A DNA stretch of 64,000 nt, taken from assembly GCA_950295325.1 (NCBI GenBank), contig OX485804.1, positions 39,234,429-39,298,428 of the forward strand, in the 5' to 3' direction. Shown piece by piece: positions 31,850 through 47,962 of the stretch. The DNA comes from Polytrichum commune. Its lineage: Eukaryota; Streptophyta; Polytrichopsida; Polytrichales; Polytrichaceae. Numbering within the stretch: the first letter of the stretch is position 1; every line of letters begins with the position of its first letter. The notes below the pieces were generated by a model, which was given only the letters and a program-made list of their open reading frames with translations, ran no database searches and was not told where the DNA came from. A program made the position numbers and the translations under genes.

Positions 31850-32406
31850 ACAACTACTCACATTCTACAGTATCAACAAGTTCAAGTAGGCACATAATCT
31901 CATTATACGTATATGTAGGTGCATGGATGAACTTATCACTCTTATAATCCACCTTGCACAAAAATCTCAACACATAATAAAGATGTTTGCAATATATTCA
32001 TTTCCTTTTCTTTCCCAATGCTTGAGAGGACATTTTCATGAAGTCTGAACACGTGCAATGCAGGATGTCACCAATTGTGATGCGATATGTGATATCATCT
32101 TTGGAAAAAATGTTGATTATCACTCCATGGCCTAGATATGGAATGGCAGTGACACCAACCACATAGTAACCGTCTATGACTCTAACGCTCTCCCATTTGT
32201 TTTTGTAATCTGTCGTCGGTGCCGTTGGATTGCGGTGCACTATTTTTTCAAACCTGAATGTAGGGTGGGCATATGGGTTCAGTGACATACAAAAATGCGA
32301 ACGAGGGATAGAAAATGTTGGTATTGTTGAAAGTCTACGATAAGGGGACAATGTTTCCCTCTGTTGTAGTTGAAATCCGGCGTCCTCCAGTGCCAACACC
32401 TCCTCA
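31850..32406 (-). pseudogene. 3' part of a MULE-like transposase relic: SWIM zinc finger
   Basis: Minus-strand continuation of the relic at 47963-50973, cut off from it by the CACTA insertion. Reading from 32406 the frame gives SSEEVLALEDAGFQLQQRET and later a SWIM finger: Cys-Thr-Cys in ILHCTCSDFMK, then YCKHLYYVLRFL supplying the Cys-x-His pair. A TGA stands where Trp would be expected just before YCKH, so the finger is interrupted. The frame then runs to a stop near 31852. SWIM fingers are common C-terminal DNA-binding parts of MULE/FAR1-type transposases. The gene was already decayed or decays now. Confidence 0.7.
32404..32406. other. CACTA target-site duplication, left (TCA)
   Basis: TCA immediately precedes the left CACTA end, and the identical TCA follows the right end at 47960-47962. 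Three-base duplications are diagnostic of CACTA/EnSpm elements. Confidence 0.9.
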
Positions 32407-32435
32407 CACTACAACAGATTGGGTATTTTGTGACT
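32407..32435. repeat. CACTA left terminal inverted repeat
   Basis: 29 bp, identical in inverse to the right end. It begins CACTACAACAG and ends TTTTGTGACT. Confidence 0.95.
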
Positions 32436-33150
32436 GTAATTTATGACTGCCTTAAGTCATAAAATCCCAAAATATGACTGACAAGGCTCCGGATGCGGAT
32501 GACGCGCGCGGTGACTGGGTCTAGTCATTACGGACGAGTCGCTTCGGACATGAGTCATATGAATATATACGGTTGTGGAGGCGTATAAAATGACAGATTC
32601 TACGATCCCCACTGCACGTGGGGCATACCTTGACTAGCCTTGGAGTATGTGCCCTTTTTTGACCTGCCCGGGCAGAAAAAATACCAAACCGACGTGGCAT
32701 GTGACTCCATGTAGTCATGTTTTCTGTTGACGTGTAATATGACTTGCATGTGTCATAATTTTGCCGACGTGGCAGGCCACGTGGAATGTGACTGCTAGTT
32801 TTTTGACTGCTTGTAGTAATGTTTTTTGGGGCGTTGGTCACATTTCTTGCGGGAATGACATTATTATATGACGTTCTGTAGTCATATTCTTAGTAACATG
32901 TGATGTACAATGTGACATGATGGAGTGATATTCGCGTAGATAGAGAGTCACATTGTGTAGTTCTTTGTGCGTTGTTGTAACTGTATTGAGTTAGATTCGT
33001 ATTACTTGCAATTCTGAATGTCAGTCACATTTCGTGGTACATTCCAAGCAATGACGACATATTCAAGTCATGTGCTACATGACTGAGCCAAATAAGAAAT
33101 TGAGCACACAAATTGAGCAGATAAATTTCAATAACTTGAACGATATTATG
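32420..33150. repeat. left subterminal ATGACT-motif region
   Basis: Between the left TIR and the end of the TNPA-like gene, copies of ATGACT, TGTGACT and AGTCAT recur every 20-60 bases (for example 32443, 32479, 32524, 32552, 32702, 32715, 32741, 32880). The same motif fills the right subterminal region. Typical of TNPA-type binding sites. Confidence 0.7.
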
Positions 33151-33225
33151 TAGTCCATGTCTCCAAGCATATTCAAATGTGTTCATCTTTCCTACATGAT
33201 TCCTAAATGCGTAAACTACCGAAAT

Positions 33226-36200
33226 CTAAGTGGTTTGTTGAGGTTCCGGCGGGATAGCCTTCAATGCTTTCACATGCCACTTGGTGATGGACTTCAGTGC
33301 ATCGCCCAGACGCAGCATCGGAGGATCGTCGTCGTTGTTGCCTTCGTACAGCAACACGGACTTTGCTCCCGGCTCGATTGAGGACACGCAAACTGATACG
33401 TTGCCTTTCTCAATGAGGCGCTCGTGGAGTGAGCCTCCTGCAAGGCTCACGATGATGCCTTGCGCCACTACGTTCGCCTTGGCCTTGTTCTCCTCGTCCA
33501 AGTCAAATAATTTGACATTGGACCCCGTGGCCAACGGCAAGGGTGCGTCCTCCACCAACGCATTAGCCGTCTCCGACAATACGAGAGTGTCCTCTTCTGC
33601 TTGTGTCTGCAGCAGAAAACGTAATTATCAACAATCAAAACAATCCGCGTGGAGTTACTGGAGCTTCAATGCTCAAAATATGACCTCACACTAGGCTATG
33701 ATTGCATAATATGACAAGACATACTCATATAACGCACCGTAGTCATCAGATATGACAACAATGAGTAATATAATTACAACCTATAACTGACCATAGTCAT
33801 ATGACTGGACATAGTCATACAACCCATGACTAGCCATAGTCATATGAATGAACATAGTCATATTTCCTATGACTGAACATAGTCATATGACTGGACATAA
33901 TTATATTGTATGACCATAATAAGTTACATATTCACCTAGGGTCCTCATATTACTTCGTGGAGTGACATACCTATGCGGACATATGTTATCAACATTTTCC
34001 TTGTTTGCGATTGGAGTGAGAACCAAATAGAAACAAAAAATATCCAAGAGCAGCTTACCTATGTCGATGAACCTACCAGGTTCGCAGGTACCGACGCTAG
34101 ATGGACCTCCTTGGTCAGATACGCCAAGCAATATTCAATATCGGATTGCTTGCGGGCCAATGCTTCGAATGGCCCGTAGATTCTGCGGAAGAAGTCATCG
34201 TTGGGGTTTAGGGGATCCCAATGCGGAAAGTTTAGGACATTTGAGAGGGGAGAACGCGCCGTCGCCGTTGTATCCCAATCGATTTGGAGACATCGTGTTG
34301 AGCTGTGCGTGGGGTCCGGAATCATATCAAATAGATTGCGGAGGTCTCTTATTGGGTTCTGGAGGGGGTAAGTCCTCCCCCACAGAAAGCTCCATTGAGC
34401 TGTCGTTCCCGATGCAAGAAATGTACCTACAACCTCTAGTACGTTCTGCTCTACGGGGGACCATATCCCGACATCAAAATTAGAGAACAACATCGATAAA
34501 AACTTATCGCAATCGGTTTTTTATTTTATTTTTACATTCAGATCCTTTGCGTGGTGGATCACTAGATCCGGGCCCCACTCTCTCCTATCGTGCAGAGGTC
34601 TGATATCGCAAAAAAGTCCTACAACATTCAACACTATAATTTTCCTACGCCCGGAGTTCGACACTCTTACCGAGGGGACCTTCGCAGCTAACGGCTGGAT
34701 CTTCGGAGCATTGCCAGCCTTCTTCTTCTTCTTCTTCTGTGGACTGCCTCCTTTATGTGCCTGTTTTGCCGGCCTCTTTGTCGCAGGCTCCTCATGGTCC
34801 TCGTCCTCCTGCAAGTCCACGGGTTGATCCTGATTCGCTCCAACCGTCATAACCTGGAAGGCCACGACCCAGTAACACTCTAGCGTTAGATTATGACTCG
34901 GCCCTGTCATACATGACTGCTTGTGATAACCTCATGTCATGTTATATGACTACTACTTCTCATGTGTTATGACTGCAGTGAGTCATATAGTATGACCGCC
35001 TATAGTCATATAACATGACTGCCTAGAGTCATATTATATGACTGCCTAGAGTCATATTATGTGACATAGTCATATGACTGTCCAATGTTGAGGCCAAATT
35101 AAAGACATAAAGCTTACACGTAAGTATAACTATCTGACAAGTATAATGTGCATATGACATGAATGCCAACCTCTTTCTGTCGAGCCATTGCACGCCGGAT
35201 AGGCCGTGCATCGCGTTCCGCCAATAGCTTCTCCGCTTCGCCCTTCCTCTTCTTGGCTATGGGTTTCTTCTTTTGAATGACAGGTTGGCAACCCATATCT
35301 GCTAGGGTGTTACGCAGGGGCTCCGATGCCGCAGTCGACCCAGTATGCCCGGATTCCGCCGACTTCCTAGTTGCCTGCATATTCTAATGATCCACATGAG
35401 GCGTGTATTAGTGAATGATCTTCATGCATGACATACAACATTGCTGAAGCAAAGGTGTTCCATACATGTACTCGAAGCGAGTACTAGAGGGTATACAGAC
35501 GCAACCTTTTCGGCGGTTACTTGGATCACGTCGACTCCCGCTTCTGCCGTGGCTGGCGGTTCCATGTCCGTGGCCGTCGTTCGCTTCTGCACCTCCAGCA
35601 GCAGCTGCTTCACCATAGCCTTTATATCTTCCATCTCCCCCTTCATGCTATCCTGGAAGTCGTGCAGCTCGCTCCGCGTAACAAAGAGGGCTCTATCTCC
35701 CGCTCTTGCATTTGGGAGTGGCCCTCTGGACGACGATGACCGGCCCCGTCCTGATTTTTCGGGTGTCGCTAGCTCGGTCTCCACCTCCAGCTGCGTCGGG
35801 GGCCGCTCTAAATTTGCGGCCTGTGAAAGGAGCAACTGCGGATCCATGAAAAATACGTAAACATACTAAATATGACTAGGTAAAGTCATATGACTCAGAA
35901 TATGACTGGGTAAAGTCATATGACTCATAATATGACTACCTGAAGTCATATTACTCAACATATGACTAGGTGAAGTCATATGACTCACAATATGACTAGG
36001 TGAAGTCATATGTGTCTGAATATGACTAGGTGAAGTCATATTCAGGTCACATGTGACTTTCTATGGCCATATGACTCACGGTATGACTATGTAAAGTGAT
36101 ATCATTCATTATATGACTGAATTGTATGACTGCAGGTTGTCACCTATTTATGTTTGAATGACTTGCACACAAAATCACTTACCAGTCTAGAGCGCACCTT

Positions 36201-38696
36201 CCCCTCGGACCTTCCAGAATACGACAGGGTCTGCACGGTCTGCCGTGCGGCTTTCATACGCGTAGCTTCCGCGATTTTGTCCGTCCGGGCAATTAAGCGC
36301 TTGAAGTTGTCGACGTGCGCCTTCTTCACATACGGTGGGAGCGGGCCACAACTCTCTATGAGTTTCTTCATGTTCGACCTGCGAGTCCGCATCTACTGGC
36401 GCAAAATCTGAAAAAAAAAACAGCTTCAGACACGTCTCCAAGTCCACCACGGTACTCGAACTGTGCGGCCATCTTGTCTTTAATCGCCAACAACAAGGGC
36501 CGTGGGTGTGCCCTGAAGTTGTCGACGCTCCAGTCGAGGTCGCGAGAGTACCCGCGTAGTCGCGTCAGCCAGTCATGCCTGTGTATCCCTGTCGGGCACC
36601 CGGCCTCGTCGACGTCGACCCACAAACGCTGACCACCACTGGAAGTGTGCAGCTCGTCACTCTTCTTCAAGGACCGCCTAAGGTTCTTCAACTTCGACTG
36701 TCGATGCCGCGCGTTTCCGTCATCGCCTTGAACCTCTGCCGTCCGGCCAAGGCAACGCACCTTATCGCGAAGTTGTGTCGGATCGGCTCCTTTTTGAGCC
36801 ATACGCCGCAAAATGCTTATTTCCCTGAGTTCCAACTCGTCAAGGAGCTCGTTACGATGCCCTGCGCCATCCTCTTCCTCCTCGTTGTCCGCCGATGCGT
36901 CGTCTGCGTCCATCTCGCAAGCCCGGAGAGTATCTTGCATGTCTTGGGACAACAGGATATCCTCCTCATCGACCGCCTTGCCCTTCTTTCCACTAGATTG
37001 CAACGGCCATGACCTGGGTTCATTTGCATTTCCCTACACACCCAGACGTACAATACATTATATGACTGCATGGAGTCACCCTACATGACTGTACTAAGTT
37101 ACATAATATGACTGGACAAAGTCATATGATTACCTATAGTCATATGACTACCTATAGTCATATTACCTATAGTCATGTAACGCGAACGACTGAATGCGGA
37201 AGCAAATGCAAGAAACTACGGAGATGTATGTTTTTACCTTCCGCCTCCTTGGTTTGGGCCGCTCGTCCTCAGAAGTCTCCTCTTCGTCCTCTTCGTCCTC
37301 GTCATCATCGAGGTCCGTTTCAGGAAGTTGTTTTTTTCCCTTCGCTCGAGTGGTCACACCCCAGCCACCACCCTGCTCTAGAGATGGGCCCGGCTCTCCC
37401 ACAGGCACGCCACGGCTGCTCTCAAAAACACGCGCAACCTCATTCCCCACTCTCTCCAAAACCGGCAACTAGCAATTGTGCGAAATACTTCCACTTGCAT
37501 GCCATCAGGCATATTAACTATTTTTGTTATCAAATTGACTAGTACATTGTTCATTTCGGCATTTTTGGTGGAAGTCGCGGGAACCACACTGTTCAGTACG
37601 AGCGGGGGTTATTAGACGGACATTACATCTCGCAAAAATTGTGACTCCAACACATGCCAATGCTGAAACATGACTCAAATGAGTCATATGGGTGAAAATT
37701 AGTATGACTGGGAGGAGTCATAATCATGAAATTGTTCACAACATGTAATGAGGATGGTTGAAAATAAAAATTGAAATTGAATGTCTATTACTGGAACTCA
37801 GTTCAGGATTCCATTGTAATTGTTAGAACCTATTGCAGAGTTGACAACACATACACCTACACATACACAACACATACACGTACACATACACAACACATAC
37901 ACATTGTCAACACATAAAATTGAGTTTGAACCTTTGTGAATTCATCTTACGAAAGGAATATGTAACAAACACATACACGTGCTCTAGCTAGTATTAATTG
38001 AGTTCCAATAATTCAAACTTTCATTATCATCACGGGCACCAACCAATCATGCATGTGAGCAGCTTAGTTAGCCCCCACTACATTGTTCCTCAATATGACA
38101 CCCGAAATATTTAGCCTATGCAGTATGGTTTCAATTCCCTTTCAAATTTGGTAACTCTGGACTGTTGGGTAGTATGGAATTATTCATTCATTATGTGATG
38201 TCAAAAAAAACATTGTTCATACACATGATCATAAATGCACGATCATAGAAAACCAATAGAAGCCACATATGATGCACAACAACAAAGTTGTGGGAAGAAG
38301 TTACAATATTTTTAGGACTGGGAGGAGTCATAATCACAAAAATGTGACTGGACTGTGTCATAATGACCTTAAAGTATGACTACGGTGAGTCATAATATTT
38401 TGAACTATGACTACATGGAGTCATAATACTATGAACTATGACTGCAAACAGTCATGTCTTCAGCAAGTTGTATGCAATTTATGACTACAAGGACTCTTAA
38501 AAGTTTCAAAATTCATAAGCAACCCTAGCTGTAGCGGGTCCGTTGTATTAGGGTTTGGTCATACATACCCGGGGTCCTCAGGTCTCTTGAAATGAGAAGT
38601 CCCAATCGGTGACAGACCCAGTTCCTGCAGTTTCTGGTTGTTGGCCTCGATGTTTTTCTTCCGCATCCTCTCATACTCCGGAATTTCCTCCTCCAT
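33226..38696 (-). CDS. TNPA/PTTA-like CACTA accessory protein, multi-exon
   Basis: This minus-strand gene encodes the second protein usual in plant CACTA elements (PTTA/En-Spm, Transposase_24-like), thought to bind subterminal repeats and assist TNP2. Exon 1 (38696-38569) gives MEEEIPEYERMRKKNIEANN..QKLQELGL, a familiar start in this class, and ends at a GTATGT donor. Further coding blocks are about 37590-37238 (acidic DDDEDEEDEEE tract), 37033-36412 (core, RLWVDVDEAGCPTG..HDWLTRLRG, IKDKMAAQFEYRG), 36392-36183 (MRTRRSNMKKLI, SEGKVRSRL, donor GTAAGT), 35822-35523 (helical, MKGEMEDIKAMVKQLLLEV), 35350-35170 (basic), 34855-34668 (KKKKKK tract), ~34493-34059 and 33579-33226 (DUF8039-like, LRLGDALKSITKW, stop). 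The block near 37465 needs a one-base shift to stay open. Several junctions are approximate, and introns are loaded with ATGACT motifs. Confidence 0.7.
33690..33950. repeat. ATGACT motif cluster between coding blocks
   Basis: Many TATGACT / CATAGTCATA units, for example 'gaccatagtcatatgactgg' near 33791-33810. It lies in a putative intron of the TNPA-like gene. Confidence 0.7.
34900..35090. repeat. ATGACT motif cluster in intron
   Basis: Repeated 'atatgactgcctagagtcat' units near 35015-35060 with flanking single motifs, between exon-like blocks of the TNPA-like gene. Confidence 0.75.
35860..36125. repeat. dense array of TATGACT-spacer-AGTCATA units
   Basis: Six or more near-identical 20-bp units of the form TATGACTAGGTGAAGTCATA, spaced about 27-32 bp apart. 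Each has palindromic arms (TATGACT and AGTCATA) around a short GGTGA/GGTAA spacer. It lies in an intron between the helical and basic-core blocks of the TNPA-like gene. Confidence 0.85.
37731..37985. repeat. captured repeat, also present at 16930-17110
   Basis: Reads 'atgaaattgttcacaacatg', then 'gttagaacctattgc', 'aaattgagtttg' and 'ttcatcttacgaaaggaatat'. The same blocks occur in the same order at 16930-17110. A short ACACATACAC array near 37848-37905 interrupts it. It lies upstream of the second coding block of the TNPA-like gene. Confidence 0.55.
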
Positions 38697-39589
38697 GATT
38701 CTACAATACCCAAATGCACATTAGTGTTCATTGAGGACAATAAGGCTGTCCCCATTGCTGCCGTTCCAGCTACACCGTGAGCGGAGGAGGTGGAGAACAA
38801 CCAGCACCTCCACAACTGAGCGACACGGAAGTTGCGAATTCAAGTGAGCTCACCTTTCTCCTCTTCGTATTACTTTGTGTGTGTGGGGTATTAGTATGAG
38901 GCGTCTAAAGGAATCCAATAGGAAACCACATTTAGTGTCCGAATTATGATTGATCATTTCACAATTTACATTGTCGTCTTTCAAGGTACAAGTTTTGAGA
39001 TTTTTGAAGTGTTAATATTTAACCTAAAATCTTAACCTTGGAGATGAGAGAGTGCACAACCTTGGAGAGTGAGACAATCTCGAAGAGAGAGAGAGACGCC
39101 CAAGAGAGAGATTTAGTGTCCGAATTAGGGTTACCCTCAGCCCAAAAAGTTAAGTGGTGCTGCCGAAGGATCAAAGTGCACCCAGCTCTCTTTATGCACC
39201 GAAGTAGAAGAATCTGGTAGAAGCAGCGAACCCAGCACCGAACTTAGATTACAACCCAGCACCCTGCACTTTGAAAAGTAATCCCACCCAACACCGAACC
39301 CCAACACTCTCCCGAAGCTCCCGGGGACCCTGCACCTCGGAACCCTGCACCGAGGACCCTGTATCCCTTCGCCGACCCTGTATCCCTTCGCCTTACTATC
39401 GAACACCGGGGACCCTACACCCTGCACCCTCGGAAGAACACCAACACCCTGTTCGCCTTCGAGCACTGAGACCCGCCGCTCCCCACAGAGACCCTTCGGC
39501 GAACACCGAGACCCTGTTCAGTACACCGATCGCAGCACTGCCGAATTAGATGAGTTCAGAAGGCGAGAGGTTTAGGTCGAAAAAAGAAA
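38697..39589. other. CACTA central region upstream of the TNPA-like gene
   Basis: Probable promoter side of the minus-strand gene. A 16-base direct repeat (ATTTAGTGTCCGAATT) occurs near 38932 and 39111. The stretch 39250-39530 is C-rich with many ACCCTGCACC and ACCCTGTATCCC units, a degenerate short repeat. The open frames here follow this low complexity and are not called. Confidence 0.5.
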
Positions 39590-39965
39590 ACAGATGTCCG
39601 AGGGAGTGAGGAAGGGAGAGAGCGCGGGGATGGAGGGGGGGGGGGCAGAGAGAGAGAGAGATAGATAGAGAGGTCCGAGGGAGGGAGGAAGGGAGAGAGC
39701 GCGGGGAGGGAGGGAGGGCGGGCAAAGAGAGAGAGAGAGAGGTCCGAGGGAGGGAGGAAGGGAGAGAGCGTGGGGAGGGAGGGAGGGAGGGAGGGAGGGG
39801 GGGGGCCAGAGAGAGAGAGAGAGGTCGGAGGGAGGGAGGAAGGGAGAGAGCGTGGGGAGGGAGGGAGGGAGGGAGGGGGGGAGAGAGAGAGAGAGAGGTC
39901 GGAGGGAGGGAGGAAGGGAGAGAGCGCGGGGAGGGAGGGAGGGGGGGCAGAGAGAGATATGTGAC
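39590..39965. repeat. GA-rich minisatellite, ~70-82 bp units, 5 copies
   Basis: Units begin GTCCGAGGGAG or GTCGGAGGGAG near 39594, 39673, 39742, 39824 and 39898. Each continues with GGAAGGGAGAGAGCG, a GGGA tract and a (GA)n tract. Open frames on the C-rich strand (Ser/Leu/Pro repeats) are an artefact of this repeat. Confidence 0.9.
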
Positions 39966-41814
39966 TGAGAGAGAGGGGCAGTCACAAATTATAAAAATGG
40001 AATGTGGCTTCAAAATAGATCATGAATTTTAATTTGCACCTAAAAAGTTGAAATTTTAGATTTATTTATAGTAACAAATATTGCGCTATGAAAAAGTGAC
40101 TGTAAAATAAGTGATTGTTATTGGAACACCATAAATCTATAATCACCCAGAAAAAAGTGAAAAGTGAAAAGTGAAAAAAGTGTGAAAAGTGTTCTCGTTT
40201 TCAATAACAGGGTAAAAAAGGGTCCGATCATGGATTTACTTAGGGCCCCATTGAAATTACTTTTACAAAAAAAGTATGGGTTTCATCACACTTATATGGG
40301 TTTTATCCATATACAAAAAAGTATGGGTTTTATCCATGTGATCTTTTATACCAATATAAATTTATCTCTATCAAATGAAGAATTATCCAGTAGGTCAAAT
40401 ATTCATTTTTTCTAAGGGGATTCTAGCTCTTCTCCCTAATTTACTTTATAAGGCATGAACTTGACGAGGGATTTGTGGTGTCTATGTAAACTCATCCATT
40501 ATGAAGGAGGAAACGTAGTGAATTGTAGTATAACTTGTATTTGACTCCAAAAATAACATCAAAGACCCTGAATTAATCTTATGGAGTCTAGTTGGAATAA
40601 ATCGACCCTCAACCTTTACGGGGACCTTTTTTAAACTAAATCCCCTTCATCCACATTGGATGACTTGACACAGACGCCACAGATCCCAAGCGAGGCATGA
40701 ACTACACATGCCTCCAACACAACACATAATAGTGGTCAATTATTGCTTAATATAATACCTATGTGTGTATTTGGTACCTTCTTAATATTTAAGTGTTTTG
40801 TTAACAAATGAAACCCATCTATCAGGTCGGTGTTCATTGAGTCTGCTTTGCACTTCTAGGACGAGTTTTCATTTAGAAGCGAAAAGAAATGTTGATGTTG
40901 AATTGGTCCCTTGGTACCACCTTTTCTAAGTATGTAAGGTAGATGGGCTTAAGTGGCTCACTTCTTTAATCGGACTTAAAGATATGATTGATAATTGGTT
41001 CGGTGAGGATCAAAAAGAAAATATCATAAAGACATATGTTTAGAATTGATTGGAATACGTCTTCAAATTTCAAAGAACTACTCTACATTCAACAATGAAC
41101 ACAATTGGGAGAACCCGCGTATTTAGTTAAGAAATCAACAAATGTTATGCATTTCTCATAACTATAATTAAATCAAATGAAACTAATGCTTGGTGTTTGC
41201 TCGGCTTTGAAAATAGGAAACTTTAGCTCACTATGTGTGAGCTCCCATATATAATTGTGTACACTCAATGACCAAGAAGATACATATTGTGCACAATGGT
41301 CCATAAGGTCACATTAGTGGTCACTAAAGTAAGTGGGTCTTGAATAAACACAACTCTCTTTAAACCCTCTTCTCATAGGATGTGAAATACGCAATTAGTG
41401 CAAAATGATTAGCAAATCCAAATTGTGCCCATAGCCATTTTCCTAAGTATGCTTTACAACATGTCCCATGATCAAGGCTTTAAAAAGTGACGTGAATATC
41501 TATTGGTCGTGGTTTTTGGACAATGAGACATCCTAATTTTCTTTCCTCACAGCCCTTGATATCATATTGGCAACAACCCTTATCCAACTCAAAGAGAATA
41601 AGCTACTTAGTTTATGACTTGTCGAGTCTTCTCAACCAACTCAACTAGGATACTTTTATTTAAATCATACAATCATATGCCATGATTTATCAAACACGTT
41701 CATGAATGTTGTAAAAGAAGATTCATACAAAGTGGATTGGGTTCATGATGTTTCATAATATTCCTTCAAGTTGCTTCACGGCTTAGGTTAGAGTATTTTC
41801 ATGCCTTCTAGTCA
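39966..41814. repeat. older dispersed-repeat DNA nested in the CACTA
   Basis: AT-rich and poor in ATGACT motifs, unlike the rest of the element. 40990-41310 matches repeat R at 17935-18310 and 41330-41470 matches 6010-6140, so host-genome repeat DNA has been inserted into or captured by the element. No gene is supportable. Confidence 0.6.
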
Positions 41815-41965
41815 TGAGCTGATGACTGGCATGTGTTATATGACTCCCGCGTGTTATATGACTGCCATGTCTTATATGACTCCCCTGTGTTATATGACTG
41901 TCATGTCTTATATGACTCCCCTGTGTTATATGACTGCCTTGGGTTATTTGACTCCTCAACCGTAT
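41815..41965. repeat. tandem TTATATGACT array upstream of the SET gene
   Basis: Six units of about 20 bp, each containing GTGTTATATGACTCC or GTCTTATATGACTGC, end just before the first SET-gene coding block. Its position fits a regulatory or protein-binding array for the plus-strand genes. Confidence 0.8.
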
Positions 41966-42016
41966 TAATCCACATAGATACGTGACTGCGTGCATACGAG
42001 CACTTCCTCCTTGTAA

Positions 42017-42967
42017 GGTATTCCCATATCACAAATTGACCCAGCGCGTATGCCGTGCACACCACAGGATGGCAGGAGGGGAGGTCGAAAGCTTGAAGCA
42101 TTTACAGTTCTGGCAAGAAGAAGAGGTCCAAGCAGATGCAATGCGGCTATCCAAGTACCCATGCCCATGCATGGAGTAGGCAGGAGGGAAAGTCCTCGAT
42201 CGAGCCACAATTCGAAAGCATCTTCGCAGCAAAAAAAGGGACCCTGTGTTTACAGCCTCTATCTTGGTGAGTCATTCCATGAAACGACTTTTGAATGAGC
42301 GTAAGCGGGTGGTCCTACATTGAGCGAGTTTTCATCTTTGTGTACATGAATTTTGTAGGCCCGATGGAGACCCATTGTAAAAGCTGCTTGCAAGACATCC
42401 CTGAGAAAGTTTCTAGGAGGACACGAAATGCCTTCACAGTCAATGCCAAACACAACGTCTGCAAAAGTACGAGCCTTGCAGACATGGGGGTCAAACGTGT
42501 ATGACGGACAGTGGTGTGACGGGCCCATCCCAAAACTTATAAAGTTTTCATACTGGAATAGAGAATGGGAAGTAAGGGTGTCCAACTTCCCATTCATGGG
42601 TTGGGGTTTCTTTGCACTTCAACCCGCCAAAGAGGGAGAAGAACTGCTGCCATTTGTAGGACCACAATACACCTTGGGAGAATACAGATCTTTGAAGAAG
42701 GCACAACCTCGAGTGAAGTCATATGCGATGCAAGTTGAGCCGGACTTGTACATCGATGGAGATGTAATGAAGGGGAATGTCGCTGGCTTCATAAATAGTT
42801 CCATAGGACGCAAAGAAATAGGAAATGTGGTGTGGGAATTTCGCATGTTACCAAAACCCTAGAACAAACAGGAATGGGGGTATGTAATCACCATAGCCAC
42901 AAAGGACATTTTGGTCGGAAAAGAGTTGTATGTACACTACTCTTTGAACCCGCACACCGCATTGTAG
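42017..42967 (+). pseudogene. SET-domain protein gene of the CACTA element (two exons; two in-frame TAG codons)
   Basis: Coding block 1 (about 42017-42266) begins after a TTGTAAG acceptor-like site. It reads PYHKLTQRVCRAHHRM, then KYPCPCME, an in-frame TAG (42177-42179), GGKVLDRATIRKHLRSKKRD and a GTGAGT donor. CPC followed by ..IRKHL resembles the transposase-associated domain found N-terminal to TNP2. Block 2 (42359-42967), in the same phase, holds a SET domain of about 130 residues: FMGWGFFALQPAKEGEELLP (GxG and GEEL motifs), a Tyr-rich middle, GNVAGFINSS (the FINHS position with His and Cys lost), NVVWEF, an in-frame TAG (42860-42862), then YVITIATKDILVGKELYVHY (terminal Tyr) and a stop. 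There is no pre-SET or post-SET Cys cluster. The SET fold transfers methyl groups to lysine in proteins, and activity here is unproven. The stops make this copy probably defective unless read through or edited. Confidence 0.75.
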
Positions 42968-43499
42968 GCTGACACCCATTAGTCCACATTCGGGATGACT
43001 AAAGTGAATCATGTGTTCACTAACATGACTACACGAAGTCATATTTTGTTTTGACAAAATTTTGTATACATGTCCGGACCACGGTATACATGCATACGTG
43101 GAACATGACCATTTTTTTACATCCAATGCTTGTATTTGTATGGTGCATGAAATTTCTTTCACCTGACACACTCTTGTCTTTATAATCGATGAACATCCCC
43201 CCACCTCCCACGCATGTTACACGTTCATGTTATATTCGGCATTTTATGATTGCCCCTCGTTAGATACAGCGCGCATTTTATGACAGAATCATGTAACACA
43301 GAAGTCACAAATTTATGACTCATCCATGTGACACAAAACTATTTGTGATTGCTCCTTGTTGTTTTTATACATTTGTATATAATATGTGCATGTTATATAC
43401 AATCCGTGTTCTGTGATTGTCATTGTTATGAGTCCTTGTCGTATGTTTCTGCCAAAGCGAAAATATATAACGTGCGCACAAATTTATCACTCTCTACAG
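42968..43499. other. spacer or intron between SET and TNP2 blocks
   Basis: About 530 bp with several ATGACT/AGTCAT motifs (for example 43025-43042) and no supportable gene. A GTAGGC site overlaps the SET stop codon and a TCTCTACAG acceptor precedes the TNP2 block, but the phases do not match directly. Whether this is an intergenic promoter or an intron is open. Confidence 0.4.
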
Positions 43500-46400
43500 G
43501 ACGAGTACAGCCCGATTGACTTGTTCTCCCATGCACCCCGGACTGGGCAAAGAAGCCAGACATACCCTAACACAAACGATGGACAAGATGGAGAAGTTGA
43601 GGTGCTACGTATGGTGGCAGAGTGCTTTGGTAAGTACGATGGCCTCAAATTTGACGGACACGAAACCGAAGCCACCATACATGAGGGACTCGGGGATGCA
43701 TTGGTTGAAGACGATGAAGGAGAGGATGGTTTCACAACGAAGGACAGTGAAGGTAGCGAGGGGGAAAGGGAAGAAACGAATGACCCCATGGAAACAAGAG
43801 GGAGTACCATGAACAGTGAGGACCCCAGTGGGGTAGACCACCAGAAGCTCTTATGCGAAGCTGGAACTCCACTGTATGAGGGAAGCCCCTCGAACCGTCT
43901 CACATCGACACTCTTGATATTATTGTGTTGCACCACCTTCGCTGTACCAAACAACTTTGTGGACGAGTTGTTGAAGTTGTTGAAGGAGACAATTTTATCC
44001 AAGGACAACACACTACCGAAATCATTTAACGAGGCGAAAGGCTTGTTGATGAAGTTGGGGTTGTCCTACAACTCAATACATGCGTGTAGAGATGGATGTT
44101 GTTTGTTTCGGAAAGAATTGGAGAATGCAACGGAGTGCCCAACATGCCACAAATCGCGCTTTGTCGAGAACTCCAGTACAATTCCAGTCAAAGTTTTGAG
44201 ACATTTTCCTTTGATTCCTCGTTTGCGAAGGATGTACAGCTGCACACGGATCGCGGAGCTAATGAAGTTGCATGTAGGTGGGAAAAATAAGGACAAGGTG
44301 ATGAGGTCCGTGGTGGACTCGAAGGCTTGGGACCACGTAAATAATAGGTGGCCGTGGTTTACGGAAGATGAACGGAACGTTAGGCTTGGCCTTGCACTGG
44401 ATGGCGTAAATCCATTTAGAAACCAAAGTCTCAGCCACTCTACTTGGCCCGTGGTCATGCTAAACTACAATCTCCCCCCTTGGTTAGTGACCAAAAACTT
44501 CTTCTTGATGCTTGCGCTAATCATACCCGGAAAAGAGAGTGTAAGGGACATGAACGTGGATGTGTACATGGCACCGTTGATTGAGGAGCTCCAAGAGCTT
44601 TGGAAAGGGATCGATTGCTTGGACGGATCGCAAGGAAACTCCAAAGAGAAAACATTTAAGCTACATGGCATGCTTTTGTGGGCGGTGAATGATTTCCCGG
44701 GGTACGGTTTGATTTCGGGGCAAGTAACAAAAGGACATAGGGCTTGCCCCGTGTGTGGCCCCAACGTGGCAACACGGCGTTCCAAAGCGTTTAAAAAAAA
44801 TGTTTACCTTAGGCATAGACGACAACTGCCAATGACCCACCAATGGAGACGACAGAGGTCCAATTTTGATGGGCAGCCGGAGATGAGACCACTGCCAAGA
44901 AGGATGAGTGGTCGAGAGCAATTGCGATATGCGAACGAGCGAGAAGAGTGGACGAAAAAACACTACAGAAACCAAACTGGGCAGACGACAGACCCCGTAC
45001 ACGAACATGGAGTGAAGAGGAGGACATGTCTATATGACCTTCCATACTGGAAAGTACGTGTATATTATTATGAGAATTAAGGGAGTGGACGTAGTAACAT
45101 GATTACATATAGTAATATTGTTTATGAGTATTATGTGAGTGGACGTAGTCATGTACAATCACATGATTGCACGTAGTGATATTGTGATTCGCTTCGGAAA
45201 ATTTCTCACTGGGTCGAGTCATTGTGCAGGATCTTCTAATTCGGCACACATTGGATGTTATGCACTGTGAGAAAAACATCGCTGAGAATGTGATAAAAGC
45301 CATATTTGGAGAGAAGGATACACTTGGAGTTCGTATGGACATGAAGGAGGCGGGTATACGCCCGCATCTTTGGCCCGTAGCAGGAACAAAACCCGGTAGC
45401 GTGATTCTACCTCGATCCTCGTACGTTATGACGAAAAAAGAGCGTGAAGTCTTTGTGGAGCAAGTGCGTGCACTGCGAACCCCCACTCACTATGTGGGAC
45501 AGTTGAATAAGCGCGTAAACGTGGATGGGAGCATAAAAGGCCTGAAATCCCATGACTACCATGTCCTCATGCAGCAAGTGTTGGCACTATGTGTGCGTTG
45601 CACAATGGAAAAGGAAGTGCGGACATCCATAATAATGTTGAGCCGTGTATTCAGGAGGATGTGTGCTAAGTCCATTGATCCTGCAACAATACAGGAGATG
45701 AGGTGTGAAGCGGCCATAGCACTATGCATGTTGGAAAAAGAATTCCCGCCATCATTTTTTGACATCATGACCCATTTGGTCCTGCATCTCGTGGAAGAAG
45801 TGGAAATTTGTAGACCTGTACATACACGTTGGATGTACCCTATCGAGAGGTACCTGAAGACTCTAAAAGGGTATGTCCGAAACCGTACTCGACCAGAGGG
45901 TTGCATGGCTGAAGGCTACGCCATAGTAGAGGCATTGGGATTTTGTACGGAGTATATGCAAGAATATACAGTCACCACTCGAAGAATGTGGGATGACAAA
46001 GAAGACCCATCAATGTATGATGAGATCCTCGAAGGTGGCAGGCGGGCGTGTCATCTCCCATCCGACCTTCGACAATGGATACATGAGTTCGTGGTGAACA
46101 ATGCGGCACCACTGGAGGAGTGGAGGAGGTGAGTTCACTGTTTACTGGAAGAACCTTAAATGCACCACCTTTGTTAGAACAACAGTCCAGACCATACGAA
46201 CTACAACAAAACACATCTTTTGTGACCTTATAGTCATGACTGCACTCAGTCATATTTTGGAATTTATGACTGAATACAATCACAAAATGTAGTTGTAAAA
46301 TATGCATTTCGTTGTAGTTATCGCGACACACTACGACTACTGTTGTACGCAAATATGACTGCCCTTAGTGATTTCAGCAAGTCCCGGGTAATGATGTGAT

Positions 46401-47300
46401 GGGCTGTATCCAAAATGCAGGAAACACGAGGATGACATGTCACGGCGGGAATGTGAGCGGCACGAATACAGGCGCAAGAAGCAGAAGGCGCGGGTAATGT
46501 ACCCAGCGGAGCTGCGCGACGAAGATTTCCACATTTGGTTTCCAAAAGCAATGATACGCGCCATAGAAGAAGGCACTGAGGAGGTACAAGAAGACGTTAG
46601 GGCCTTGATGTTACCTCCATCGGATGCAGCGAAGTCGTATCGATCCATGTATGCGTTTGGAAACCACATCCGTGTCCGAAGCGCACAGGCGCAATTGACA
46701 ACGATGGACTCAGGGGTGGCCGCAACATTTCGACAATTATGTCGCTCGGGCCTAAAGGACACAAATCCAAAGGCAGCGAAGTTGGAGTATGTGGGTTGGG
46801 TGGAGGAAATCCTATCTGTGGACTATGGATTCTTCGAGGTGGTGGTCCTCTATTGCAATTGGGTCGTTGCAAACATTAAGGGAAATGGGGCGACGATGAA
46901 GCGCGATGACTATGGTTTCACCATTGTAAACTTTGACAGATTGATTCCGTTTTCAGTACAATCATTTGCATTTCCTCTCCACATCGAACAAGTTTTTTTT
47001 GCACCTGACGTAGCAAAGTGTGGATGGGAAGTTGTTTTGCGCAAGGAACCGAGAGGGGTTCGGGTATTCTCCAAACAACAAAGAACGGATGAAGTACAAT
47101 GCATAGCACTAGGTAGGACTTCTGATTTTCCCGGATTACAAGTGACAGCGTTTCATGACGATATCGTACCGAAAACACCCATATTGGGCGATGCAGTGGA
47201 AGTAGGGCCAGGAGTGGTTGCCAAGGCATTAGAATGTCTAAAGGGACCGGATGACGTATCGGTAGATGACTCCGAGCACTGCGACTCGGACGGTGATTGA
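43386..47300 (+). CDS. TNP2-type CACTA transposase (Transposase_21, DUF4218, DUF4216)
   Basis: This is the catalytic transposase that cuts and joins the element's ends. Exon A (43386 or, after a CTCTACAG acceptor, 43500, to 45053) encodes an acidic N-terminus, then HACRDGCCLFRKELENATEC with the CPTC zinc-binding pair, LALDGVNPFRNQS (likely first catalytic Asp, about residue 339), and AVNDFPGYGLISG (second Asp) followed by HRACPVC. A 176-bp GTACGT...GCAG intron (45054-45229) splits LPYWK from DLLIRHTLDVMHCEKN, a hallmark junction. Exon B (45230-46128) is the DUF4218 part. A 292-bp intron with ATGACT motifs follows (46129-46420). Exon C (46421-47300) is the DUF4216 part, ending with a Ser/Asp-rich tail and TGA. 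No internal stop or frameshift was seen, so this gene looks intact. The true start is uncertain. Confidence 0.93.
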
Positions 47301-47930
47301 CTTCCCGTCCGAGCAAGAAGTTGTATTGGTGAAACTTAGGTGGGTATATATTTAAGTTCAATTATATACATGTTCAATTAGTCTCTTGGCAATAGTAAAA
47401 ATCAAATTTCCTCCCCAATTTCCCCCCTATACTCCCTAAAACATCAATCAATTAATTATTCGATCAATAAATAAACATGGGCCATTCCCAATTTTCATTG
47501 CCGTTCATACTATAACACACAAAGTACTTAATTTTGACCATTATCTGTCATTATTAAATAAATACTCCAAACCATAATACTAGATAATGAGTCATGGGGC
47601 AAAAACACAGGAGGCCCGTCTAGGGCAGCCTGAATTATCAAGGGCTGCCCAAAAAAAGTAAAAAAAAGGTCCTAGTCAGAATGTGACTAAAGAATATGAC
47701 TCGCAGAAAAATGTGACTGGCACATATGACTGGGCGTCCACCATACACGTTCCCCGTCGTTCCCTATAAAGGCGGTCATCGTTCCCATACGTCGTATACA
47801 GTACATTTTCCGAATACGACAGTAAAATATGACTGCGAGTCATATTTTTGAATTTCGTACCCACCAAAGGTCGAGGCCTAGGAAAATGTGACTGCATGTA
47901 GTCACCAATCATCCCCAGTCATATTTCCCT
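47301..47930. repeat. right subterminal region of the CACTA
   Basis: The first 300 bp are AT-rich UTR-like sequence. From about 47680 the ATGACT/AGTCAT motifs recur every 15-40 bases (for example 47696, 47716, 47726, 47828, 47840, 47920), mirroring the left end. Confidence 0.75.
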
Positions 47931-47959
47931 AGTCACAAAATACCCAATCTGTTGTAGTG
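47931..47959. repeat. CACTA right terminal inverted repeat
   Basis: The exact inverse of 32407-32435, ending CTGTTGTAGTG, and followed by the TCA duplication. Confidence 0.95.
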
Positions 47960-47962
47960 TCA

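Follow-up and report, generated by a model that had tools for sequence, protein, structure and literature searches.

CACTA elements belong to the best-studied transposons of plants. For VANDAL elements, plant transposons of the MuDR superfamily, the accounts available describe an element-encoded counter to silencing, and the likeness to the element described here lies in this possible purpose. The VANDAL anti-silencing protein, to our knowledge, has no SET domain. Mobile elements with SET genes are known from Phytophthora. In the accessible part of the source, SET genes are described in HarbingerS and MuDR elements (PMC12730594, citing Repbase Reports 2014), and the partial text on proto-Helentron-Pi describes a short SET frame of approximately 153 amino acids, similar to Clr4 (PMC4067079).

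Like the present CACTA element, HarbingerS and the SET-bearing MuDR elements are, according to the same accessible text, DNA transposons with a SET histone-methyltransferase gene (PMC12730594). They belong to other superfamilies and to oomycetes, whereas the element described here is a CACTA element with TNP2 in a land plant, and its SET sequence differs from theirs, as far as that text describes them, in being an exon between a transposase N-terminal motif and TNP2. Proto-Helentron-Pi is likewise mobile and has a short SET frame, but it is a rolling-circle element, and the available part of its description (PMC4067079) mentions no shared transposase exon of the kind proposed here. In SETMAR, as described in the excerpt of PMC6326780, a SET methylase is directed to transposon ends by a DNA-binding part of transposon origin to which it is fused, which is the likeness; SETMAR is a host gene with a mariner inserted downstream, whereas here it is a transposon that took in a SET sequence. 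Fungal DNA transposons bearing TET/JBP, EnSpm among them, show that CACTA-type elements occur among those with an enzyme for a silencing mark; in the accessible text (PMC12730594) the enzyme is a dioxygenase acting on DNA methylation in fungi, whereas here it is a SET domain in a land plant. No report of a SET gene in a CACTA/EnSpm element was found in the open literature searched, Repbase and subscription papers lying outside that scope. Transposon-borne SET genes are thus known, and what is new here, as far as we have seen, is their presence in a CACTA element, in a plant, and as an exon between the transposase and its N-terminal motif.

The window, the whole 64-kb stretch of Polytrichum commune DNA analyzed here, lies on contig C2, and the searches of the own genome covered the 408-Mb assembly. 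On contig C8, Pfam marked an rbcL gene with best matches of plant type, and reading by eye placed an accD frame behind it with a trn-like gene between the two. A complete CACTA (EnSpm) element of 15,553 bp was found at 32407..47959 on the plus strand. Its ends were intact, as first described: the 29-bp terminal inverted repeats (TIRs; left, 32407..32435, plus strand; right, 47931..47959, minus strand) are identical, have CACTACAAC as their starting letters and open with CACTACAACAGATTGGG at both ends, and direct comparison of the flanks gave a TCA target site duplication on either side (32404..32406 and 47960..47962). The same 3' end was found in loci L024, L027 and L028. The assignment to CACTA/EnSpm rests on the CACTA-beginning TIRs, the 3-bp duplication and TNP2 (PF02992). 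The transposase is of the TNP2 class, and so it is neither the Harbinger transposase of HarbingerS nor the MuDR transposase of VANDAL.

In the Pfam profile search, TNP2 was distributed over three frames of the plus strand. Exon a (43500..45053, right border placed by eye) holds Transposase_21 (PF02992, E 1.8e-70), and its acceptor in the window copy is CTACAG/GACGAG, in phase 0 (a slash marks the splice junction). Exon b (45230..46129, borders by eye) matched DUF4218 (PF13960, E 2.5e-36). Exon c (46421..47300, left border by eye) contains a stop codon and gave a weak DUF4216 match (PF13952, E 1.1e-5) of 26.3 bits, under the Pfam cut-off of 30.6. On the minus strand, stop-free frames at 33226..38839 form a probable second, divergent multi-exon gene in a TNPA-like position. 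None of the four frames of it that were scanned had a Pfam match over the cut-off, and the gene may be a TNPA-like partner. TATGACT/AGTCATA repeats occurred at 5.0 and 8.2 per kb near the element ends and were densest over the minus-strand gene (9.4 per kb), compared to a background of 0.12 per kb in two stretches outside the element. A long G- and A-rich repeat tract was seen between the two divergent genes, at 39590-39960, and is partly present in L024 too.

The preliminary description had placed a SET-domain frame at 42017..42967, upstream of TNP2 on the same strand and inside the CACTA element, and this arrangement was confirmed. The SET exon itself covers only 42359..42967 of that frame (plus strand, 202 codons and a stop). 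It was identified by PF00856, by the acceptor and stop seen in relatives and by the predicted fold; it follows a TAG/ acceptor, with a phase-0 start, and ends with the stop at 42965-42967. The remaining part, 42017-42358, turned out to be not SET sequence but an upstream exon at 42069..42266 (plus strand) followed by a 92-bp intron (42267-42358). This shared first exon carries a CPCxxC...HL zinc-like motif, was recognized by its protein-level conservation between subfamilies, with borders taken from sequence, and ends in phase 0 at ATCTTG/GTGAGT. The SET similarity of the frame is real: PF00856 matched the window copy over positions 1-104 of 105 (E 3.5e-8, 34.3 bits against a cut-off of 22.4, the internal stop being read as X) and an open copy joined to its own first exon with E 4.5e-10 and 40.3 bits, and a SET fold was also predicted. 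The window's own SET gene is dead, with stops in both coding exons. In the first exon, the codon for the third Cys of the motif reads TAG (42177-42179), where L024 and L028 have TGT (Cys), and a TAG at 42860-42862 stands in the SET exon where relatives have Trp. The window copy also reads GWGFFA, compared to GWGLFA in relatives.

When the assembly was searched with Pfam, 119 SET matches were found at E <=0.001. By match length and place, 88 of the 119 were judged to be of the same kind, beside the window; left out were the six best-scoring host-like places, the partial ones and the window itself. The first 20 of the 88 by SET score, an order which favours intact SET sequences, were fetched as L009-L028, and TNP2 lay downstream on the same strand in 19 of them. 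One, L012, was a host-like SET and was dropped from the transposon-type set. With the L017 SET frame as the protein query, 209 candidates were obtained, of which 150 were scored, at identities from 100% down to 29%. Among the 95 of these 150 rows that were counted, 91 aligned over at least 141 residues and 69 at full length, and 45 of the 69 full-length frames were free of stops. The SET frame is therefore present, and often open, in many further CACTA copies.

The same pairing was found from the transposase side. Among 150 scored TNP2 places (643 candidates), 73 were preceded by a SET on the same strand at a distance of no more than 8 kb, whereas 0.22 pairs were expected by chance. The SET-TNP2 distance was 900-1430 bp in 69 of the 73, the SET frame was full length in 53 and stop-free in 41 of those 53, and no SET was found near TNP2 in any other arrangement among the 150 scored places of the 643 candidates. 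Because 150 of 209 SET and 150 of 643 TNP2 candidates were scored, these copy counts are lower bounds. The other 77 of the 150 scored TNP2 places had no listed SET within 8 kb, indicating that not every CACTA element here needs one. An element was called SET-less when none of the 150 scored SET places lay within 8 kb; the upstream DNA was read in five such elements (L031-L035), and a full-sensitivity search found no hidden SET in them. Three TNP2 places in SET-bearing clades (L062, L063 and L085) were without a listed SET within 8 kb. They could be single losses, carry insertions between SET and TNP2, or have SET copies among those not scored. In addition, L039 (C3:18193363-18194699) was seen to be a deletion derivative whose SET frame continues straight into the last TNP2 exon.

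Several origins of the SET sequence were considered and rejected. A host SET gene struck by a transposon does not agree with a SET lying inside the TIRs and diverging in parallel with TNP2. A close host progenitor was sought among the host-like loci L001-L006 and L012. Only two of these (L004 and L002) gave a score, which was weak and lower than that of two viral loci. The viral loci, themselves weak matches at 27-28% identity, were the yield of scanning viral contigs with the 21-row SET alignment for a possible viral source, and no phage match was found. Fold matches of the SET model in BFVD were general SET proteins.

Selection on the SET frame was estimated as dN/dS by Nei-Gojobori counts over subfamilies A, B, C, W (the group of the window) and D. 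The codon alignment was made without L021 and L025; L025 was included in a second alignment, in which L021 was in no group. Between A and C, dN/dS of the SET frame was 0.16 (dS 0.68), and 0.18 with the second alignment, compared to 0.13-0.16 for three parts of TNP2. Values were 0.12-0.17 for B against C and 0.31-0.33 for A against B. In comparisons against W and D, synonymous sites were near or at saturation. The first (zinc) exon gave dN 0.047 and dS 0.47 between A and C over 44 codons, and when the window was aligned with loci of other subfamilies, blocks of more than 120 bp were found only in the SET and TNP2 coding parts. Within groups, dN/dS of the SET frame was 0.22-0.25 in A, 0.17 in C, 0.58 in W and 0.62-0.68 in D. 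The low values within A may come partly from the choice of loci by SET score, and the W and D values speak for relaxed or decaying copies. The expectation of purifying selection across copies was thus borne out between subfamilies, whereas within W and D a part of the copies seems to be relaxed or decaying.

By these comparisons, selection has preserved the SET reading frame for a long span of evolution, which suggests that the elements put it to their own use. Passive capture of the Pack-CACTA type, in which a fragment of a host SET gene is carried without use, would agree with the dN/dS of 0.58-0.68 within W and D and with the ability of CACTA elements to acquire gene fragments (a Pack-CACTA study is named in the reference list of PMC8616336, the part of that source available). 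It is opposed by the constant position of the SET, the many open frames, the low dN/dS between subfamilies, a divergence parallel with that of TNP2 and the absence of a close progenitor among the seven host SET loci examined, and we consider it very improbable. In a group of CACTA lineages, then, the SET gene is a lasting component of the element and is under selection. Our best overall explanation adds to this the proposed steps of expression, activity and targeting set out below, and as a whole we hold it with about even confidence.

The same five groups (A, B, C, W and D) came out of the SET tree and the TNP2 tree of the same 20 loci, and the branches separating them were of similar length in both. 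A larger SET tree of 40 rows added further lineages, named E and F. It holds 39 distinct loci, since L049 is the L020 locus (which also stands twice in the 21-row alignment), and two of its rows, L039 and L046, are damaged copies. The two genes did not agree everywhere. By TNP2, L021 joined A and B (100/99); by SET, on the 40-row tree, it joined C (87/98). The deep lineages also branched in a different order for the two genes, weakly supported in each case (88/70 and 85/71).

On a TNP2-domain tree of 54 rows (29 SET-bearing and 25 SET-less, L020 being absent for too few columns), the SET-bearing elements fell into several separated clades, with six changes between the two states. Eight changes were counted on a 43-row TNP2 tree with L093 and L094 as outgroup, from which 13 near-copies had been dropped. 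L093 and L094 belong to a remote lineage, with TNP2 pieces 27-43% identical to the window and a SET 34-38% identical to those of other lineages, and they have the zinc motif, SET and TNP2 in the same order as the other SET-bearing lineages. PF00856 matched the L093 SET with 23.0 bits (cut-off 22.4). Three copies of the SET frame of this lineage are open, and two of these are identical in protein over the query. The three open and very similar copies (L093, L094 and C5:1795593-1796177) were seen beside old, decayed ones. The remote SET-bearing lineage may have been recently active or may have recently arrived.

We read this history as a probably old, single gain of the SET followed by several losses. 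Repeated gain of the SET, or its exchange between CACTA lineages, would also place SET-bearing clades apart from one another between SET-less clades, as in the six changes over 54 rows and the eight over 43, and would fit a deep order that is discordant between the SET and TNP2 trees, albeit with weak support. Under such a history, however, one would have to account for a slot that is constant between the zinc motif and TNP2 in the loci read, for one SET family throughout with the same odd motif in all its members, for the zinc exon retained in the SET-less L031 and L032 and for the parallel divergence of SET and TNP2. Repeated gain or exchange is therefore rated as unlikely, and a single old gain remains the preferred reading.

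The arrangement of the first exon bears on how the SET is expressed. Exactly one CPCxxC...HL motif was found in 18 of 20 SET-bearing loci, the motif being lost in the window and in L027, and it sits in an exon of approximately 66 codons upstream of the SET. In the SET-less elements L033, L034 and L035 the zinc motif lies in the same frame as TNP2, and PF13963 (Transpos_assoc) was over its cut-off in L034 and L035 and just below it in L033. L031 and L032, also SET-less, have a separate zinc exon followed by TNP2. When PF13963 was applied to the first exon of SET-bearing elements, alone or joined, scores of 17.7-22.2 bits were obtained, under the cut-off of 27.7; the matches in relatives (E 1.6e-4 to 4e-3) likewise stayed under the Pfam cut-off.

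In groups A, B, C and W, the zinc exon ends and the SET exon begins in phase 0, and the likely acceptor of TNP2 has this phase too. The phase-0 site CAG/GAGGTC was the sole acceptor-like site in seven of nine A and B copies, whereas D has equally good rival acceptors in phase 1. With all phases listed, 30 acceptors were in phase 0, 12 in phase 1 and 8 in phase 2, and no clean TNP2 acceptor was present in L019, L021, L023, L025 and L026. In the groups examined, the zinc and SET exons share one frame, which is closed ahead of TNP2 by a stop belonging to the SET exon. A fusion of SET to TNP2 through a donor near the SET end was rejected, as no donor common to all groups was found by eye. The simplest gene model, with splicing read from the sequence, would be one first exon giving two products. 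Splicing of the zinc exon to the SET exon would yield a zinc-SET protein, and skipping of the SET exon would yield a zinc-TNP2 transposase with the same N-terminus. We consider this step probable, and our confidence in it was raised slightly by a comparison of U-box matches at the junction.

In that comparison, the zinc exon joined to SET was scored with the U-box profile (PF04564, cut-off 21.4 bits), giving 24.6-24.9 bits in A, 24.3 in C, 26.0 in W and 16.9 in D, so that the joined zinc-SET proteins of three of four relatives were over the cut-off. With the first exon alone, W scored 22.3 bits, and C and D were below 21.4. When the zinc exon was joined to SET, the match extended at least 20 residues into the SET exon. 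When it was joined to TNP2, the match stopped near the junction (14.9 bits in A and 22.6 in W), and no U-box match was found in the zinc-TNP2 joint of the SET-less L031. A match that crosses the junction only in the zinc-SET joint favours a real zinc-SET joint.

The same in-frame exon and its stop before TNP2 would also suit a poison exon, the inclusion of which ends the frame before TNP2, lowers the amount of transposase and so lets the element limit itself, with the SET sequence being less important. The conservation of SET at the protein level (0.16-0.18 between A and C) would not be needed for such a role, which we find improbable. A U-box-SET protein is rated no higher. Here a U-box-like ligase domain would arise from the first exon together with the beginning of the SET exon, and the protein would ubiquitinate and methylate silencing factors or the transposase instead of acting through binding to the element. 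The scores over 21.4 bits in the joined A, C and W proteins, and a junction crossed only with SET, favour it. Against it, D is below the cut-off, the scores are weak and come from homologous, non-independent sequences, and the same exon precedes TNP2 in SET-less relatives and resembles Transpos_assoc. The U-box-like scores do leave the targeting role of the N-terminus unsure, and this region could be a targeting part, a U-box-like part or neither. A shared first exon with two alternative products, zinc-SET and zinc-TNP2, is the model retained below.

Whether the SET product is likely to be an enzyme was judged from its residues and fold. In the 21 aligned transposon rows (one locus being present twice), the GxG, the Asn residues and the C-terminal Tyr were invariant, and eight columns, Gly, Asn and Tyr columns among them, stayed invariant when four host SET domains were added. 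The His of NHxC was replaced by Ser or Asn in all aligned rows, as IN(S/N)(S/F/T), in contrast to NHS in the four host SETs. The FINSS motif, which had been taken for an alteration of the window copy, is thus no peculiarity of it; the accompanying suggestion of a dead SET holds for the window copy through its stops but is not a necessity for the family, in which GxG, Asn and Tyr are kept. No pre-SET or post-SET cysteine clusters were seen, there being no Cys among the invariant columns of the 21 rows, and the frame ends a few residues past the C-terminal Tyr.

The nearest solved proteins by sequence were Set1/MLL and ASH1L, and the SET part of LegAS4 (NCBIfam) matched weakly, at 17-33 bits against a cut-off of 550. 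A model of the SET core was obtained with pLDDT 78.8 and pTM 0.73 from an alignment that held four host SETs, which can steer the fold; a model of the full SET exon without host rows had a pLDDT of 39.9 and was discarded. Among the best 50 of 469 solved matches in a fold search, MLL1 and SET8 came first and SET7/9 was included, with TM scores of 0.57-0.68 by query length.

PRDM9 is active without NHxC. With NHxC lost and the pre-SET and post-SET cysteine clusters missing, activity of the present protein is not to be assumed, and we lean only slightly towards an active lysine methyltransferase that tolerates the loss of the His. A kept, non-catalytic module would use its SET fold to bind SAM, a partner or a histone tail, and would in this way tether the transposase or the element to chromatin. 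It would explain the Ser or Asn in every aligned row, the lack of post-SET cysteines and the early end of the frame, and purifying selection would look alike under both readings. It does not explain why the usual SAM-binding and catalytic residues (GxG, Asn and Tyr) are invariant in the 21 rows, and most of them also against the four host SETs, and the case of PRDM9 takes weight from the missing His. Such a module seems to us unlikely, and an active methyltransferase stays the reading carried forward.

If the SET protein is active, the N-terminus that it would share with the transposase could bring it to the element ends or to the transposase, where methylation of histones or of a partner would favour expression or transposition, an anti-silencing effect. 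This step is tentative, and our confidence in it was lowered slightly because the N-terminus may be U-box-like and not a targeting part. The same machinery could have the opposite outcome, self-restraint of the element. Taken together, inclusion or skipping of one exon would decide between methyltransferase and transposase, and each copy would be both source and target of a methylase, anti-silencing or self-limiting, retained from before the deep CACTA lineages split; as a whole this proposal is doubtful, somewhat more so than its targeting step. In a bolder form, the N-terminus would be U-box-like, and the element may combine a ubiquitin ligase with a methylase.

The genome holds SET-bearing and SET-less relatives side by side, so that their methylation, expression and spread can be compared directly. 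Should the SET protein prove active and reach the element that encodes it, these CACTA elements would provide a land plant with a naturally occurring chromatin writer that targets itself. In that case, they would make it possible to test directly by what means a transposon resists or establishes its own silencing.
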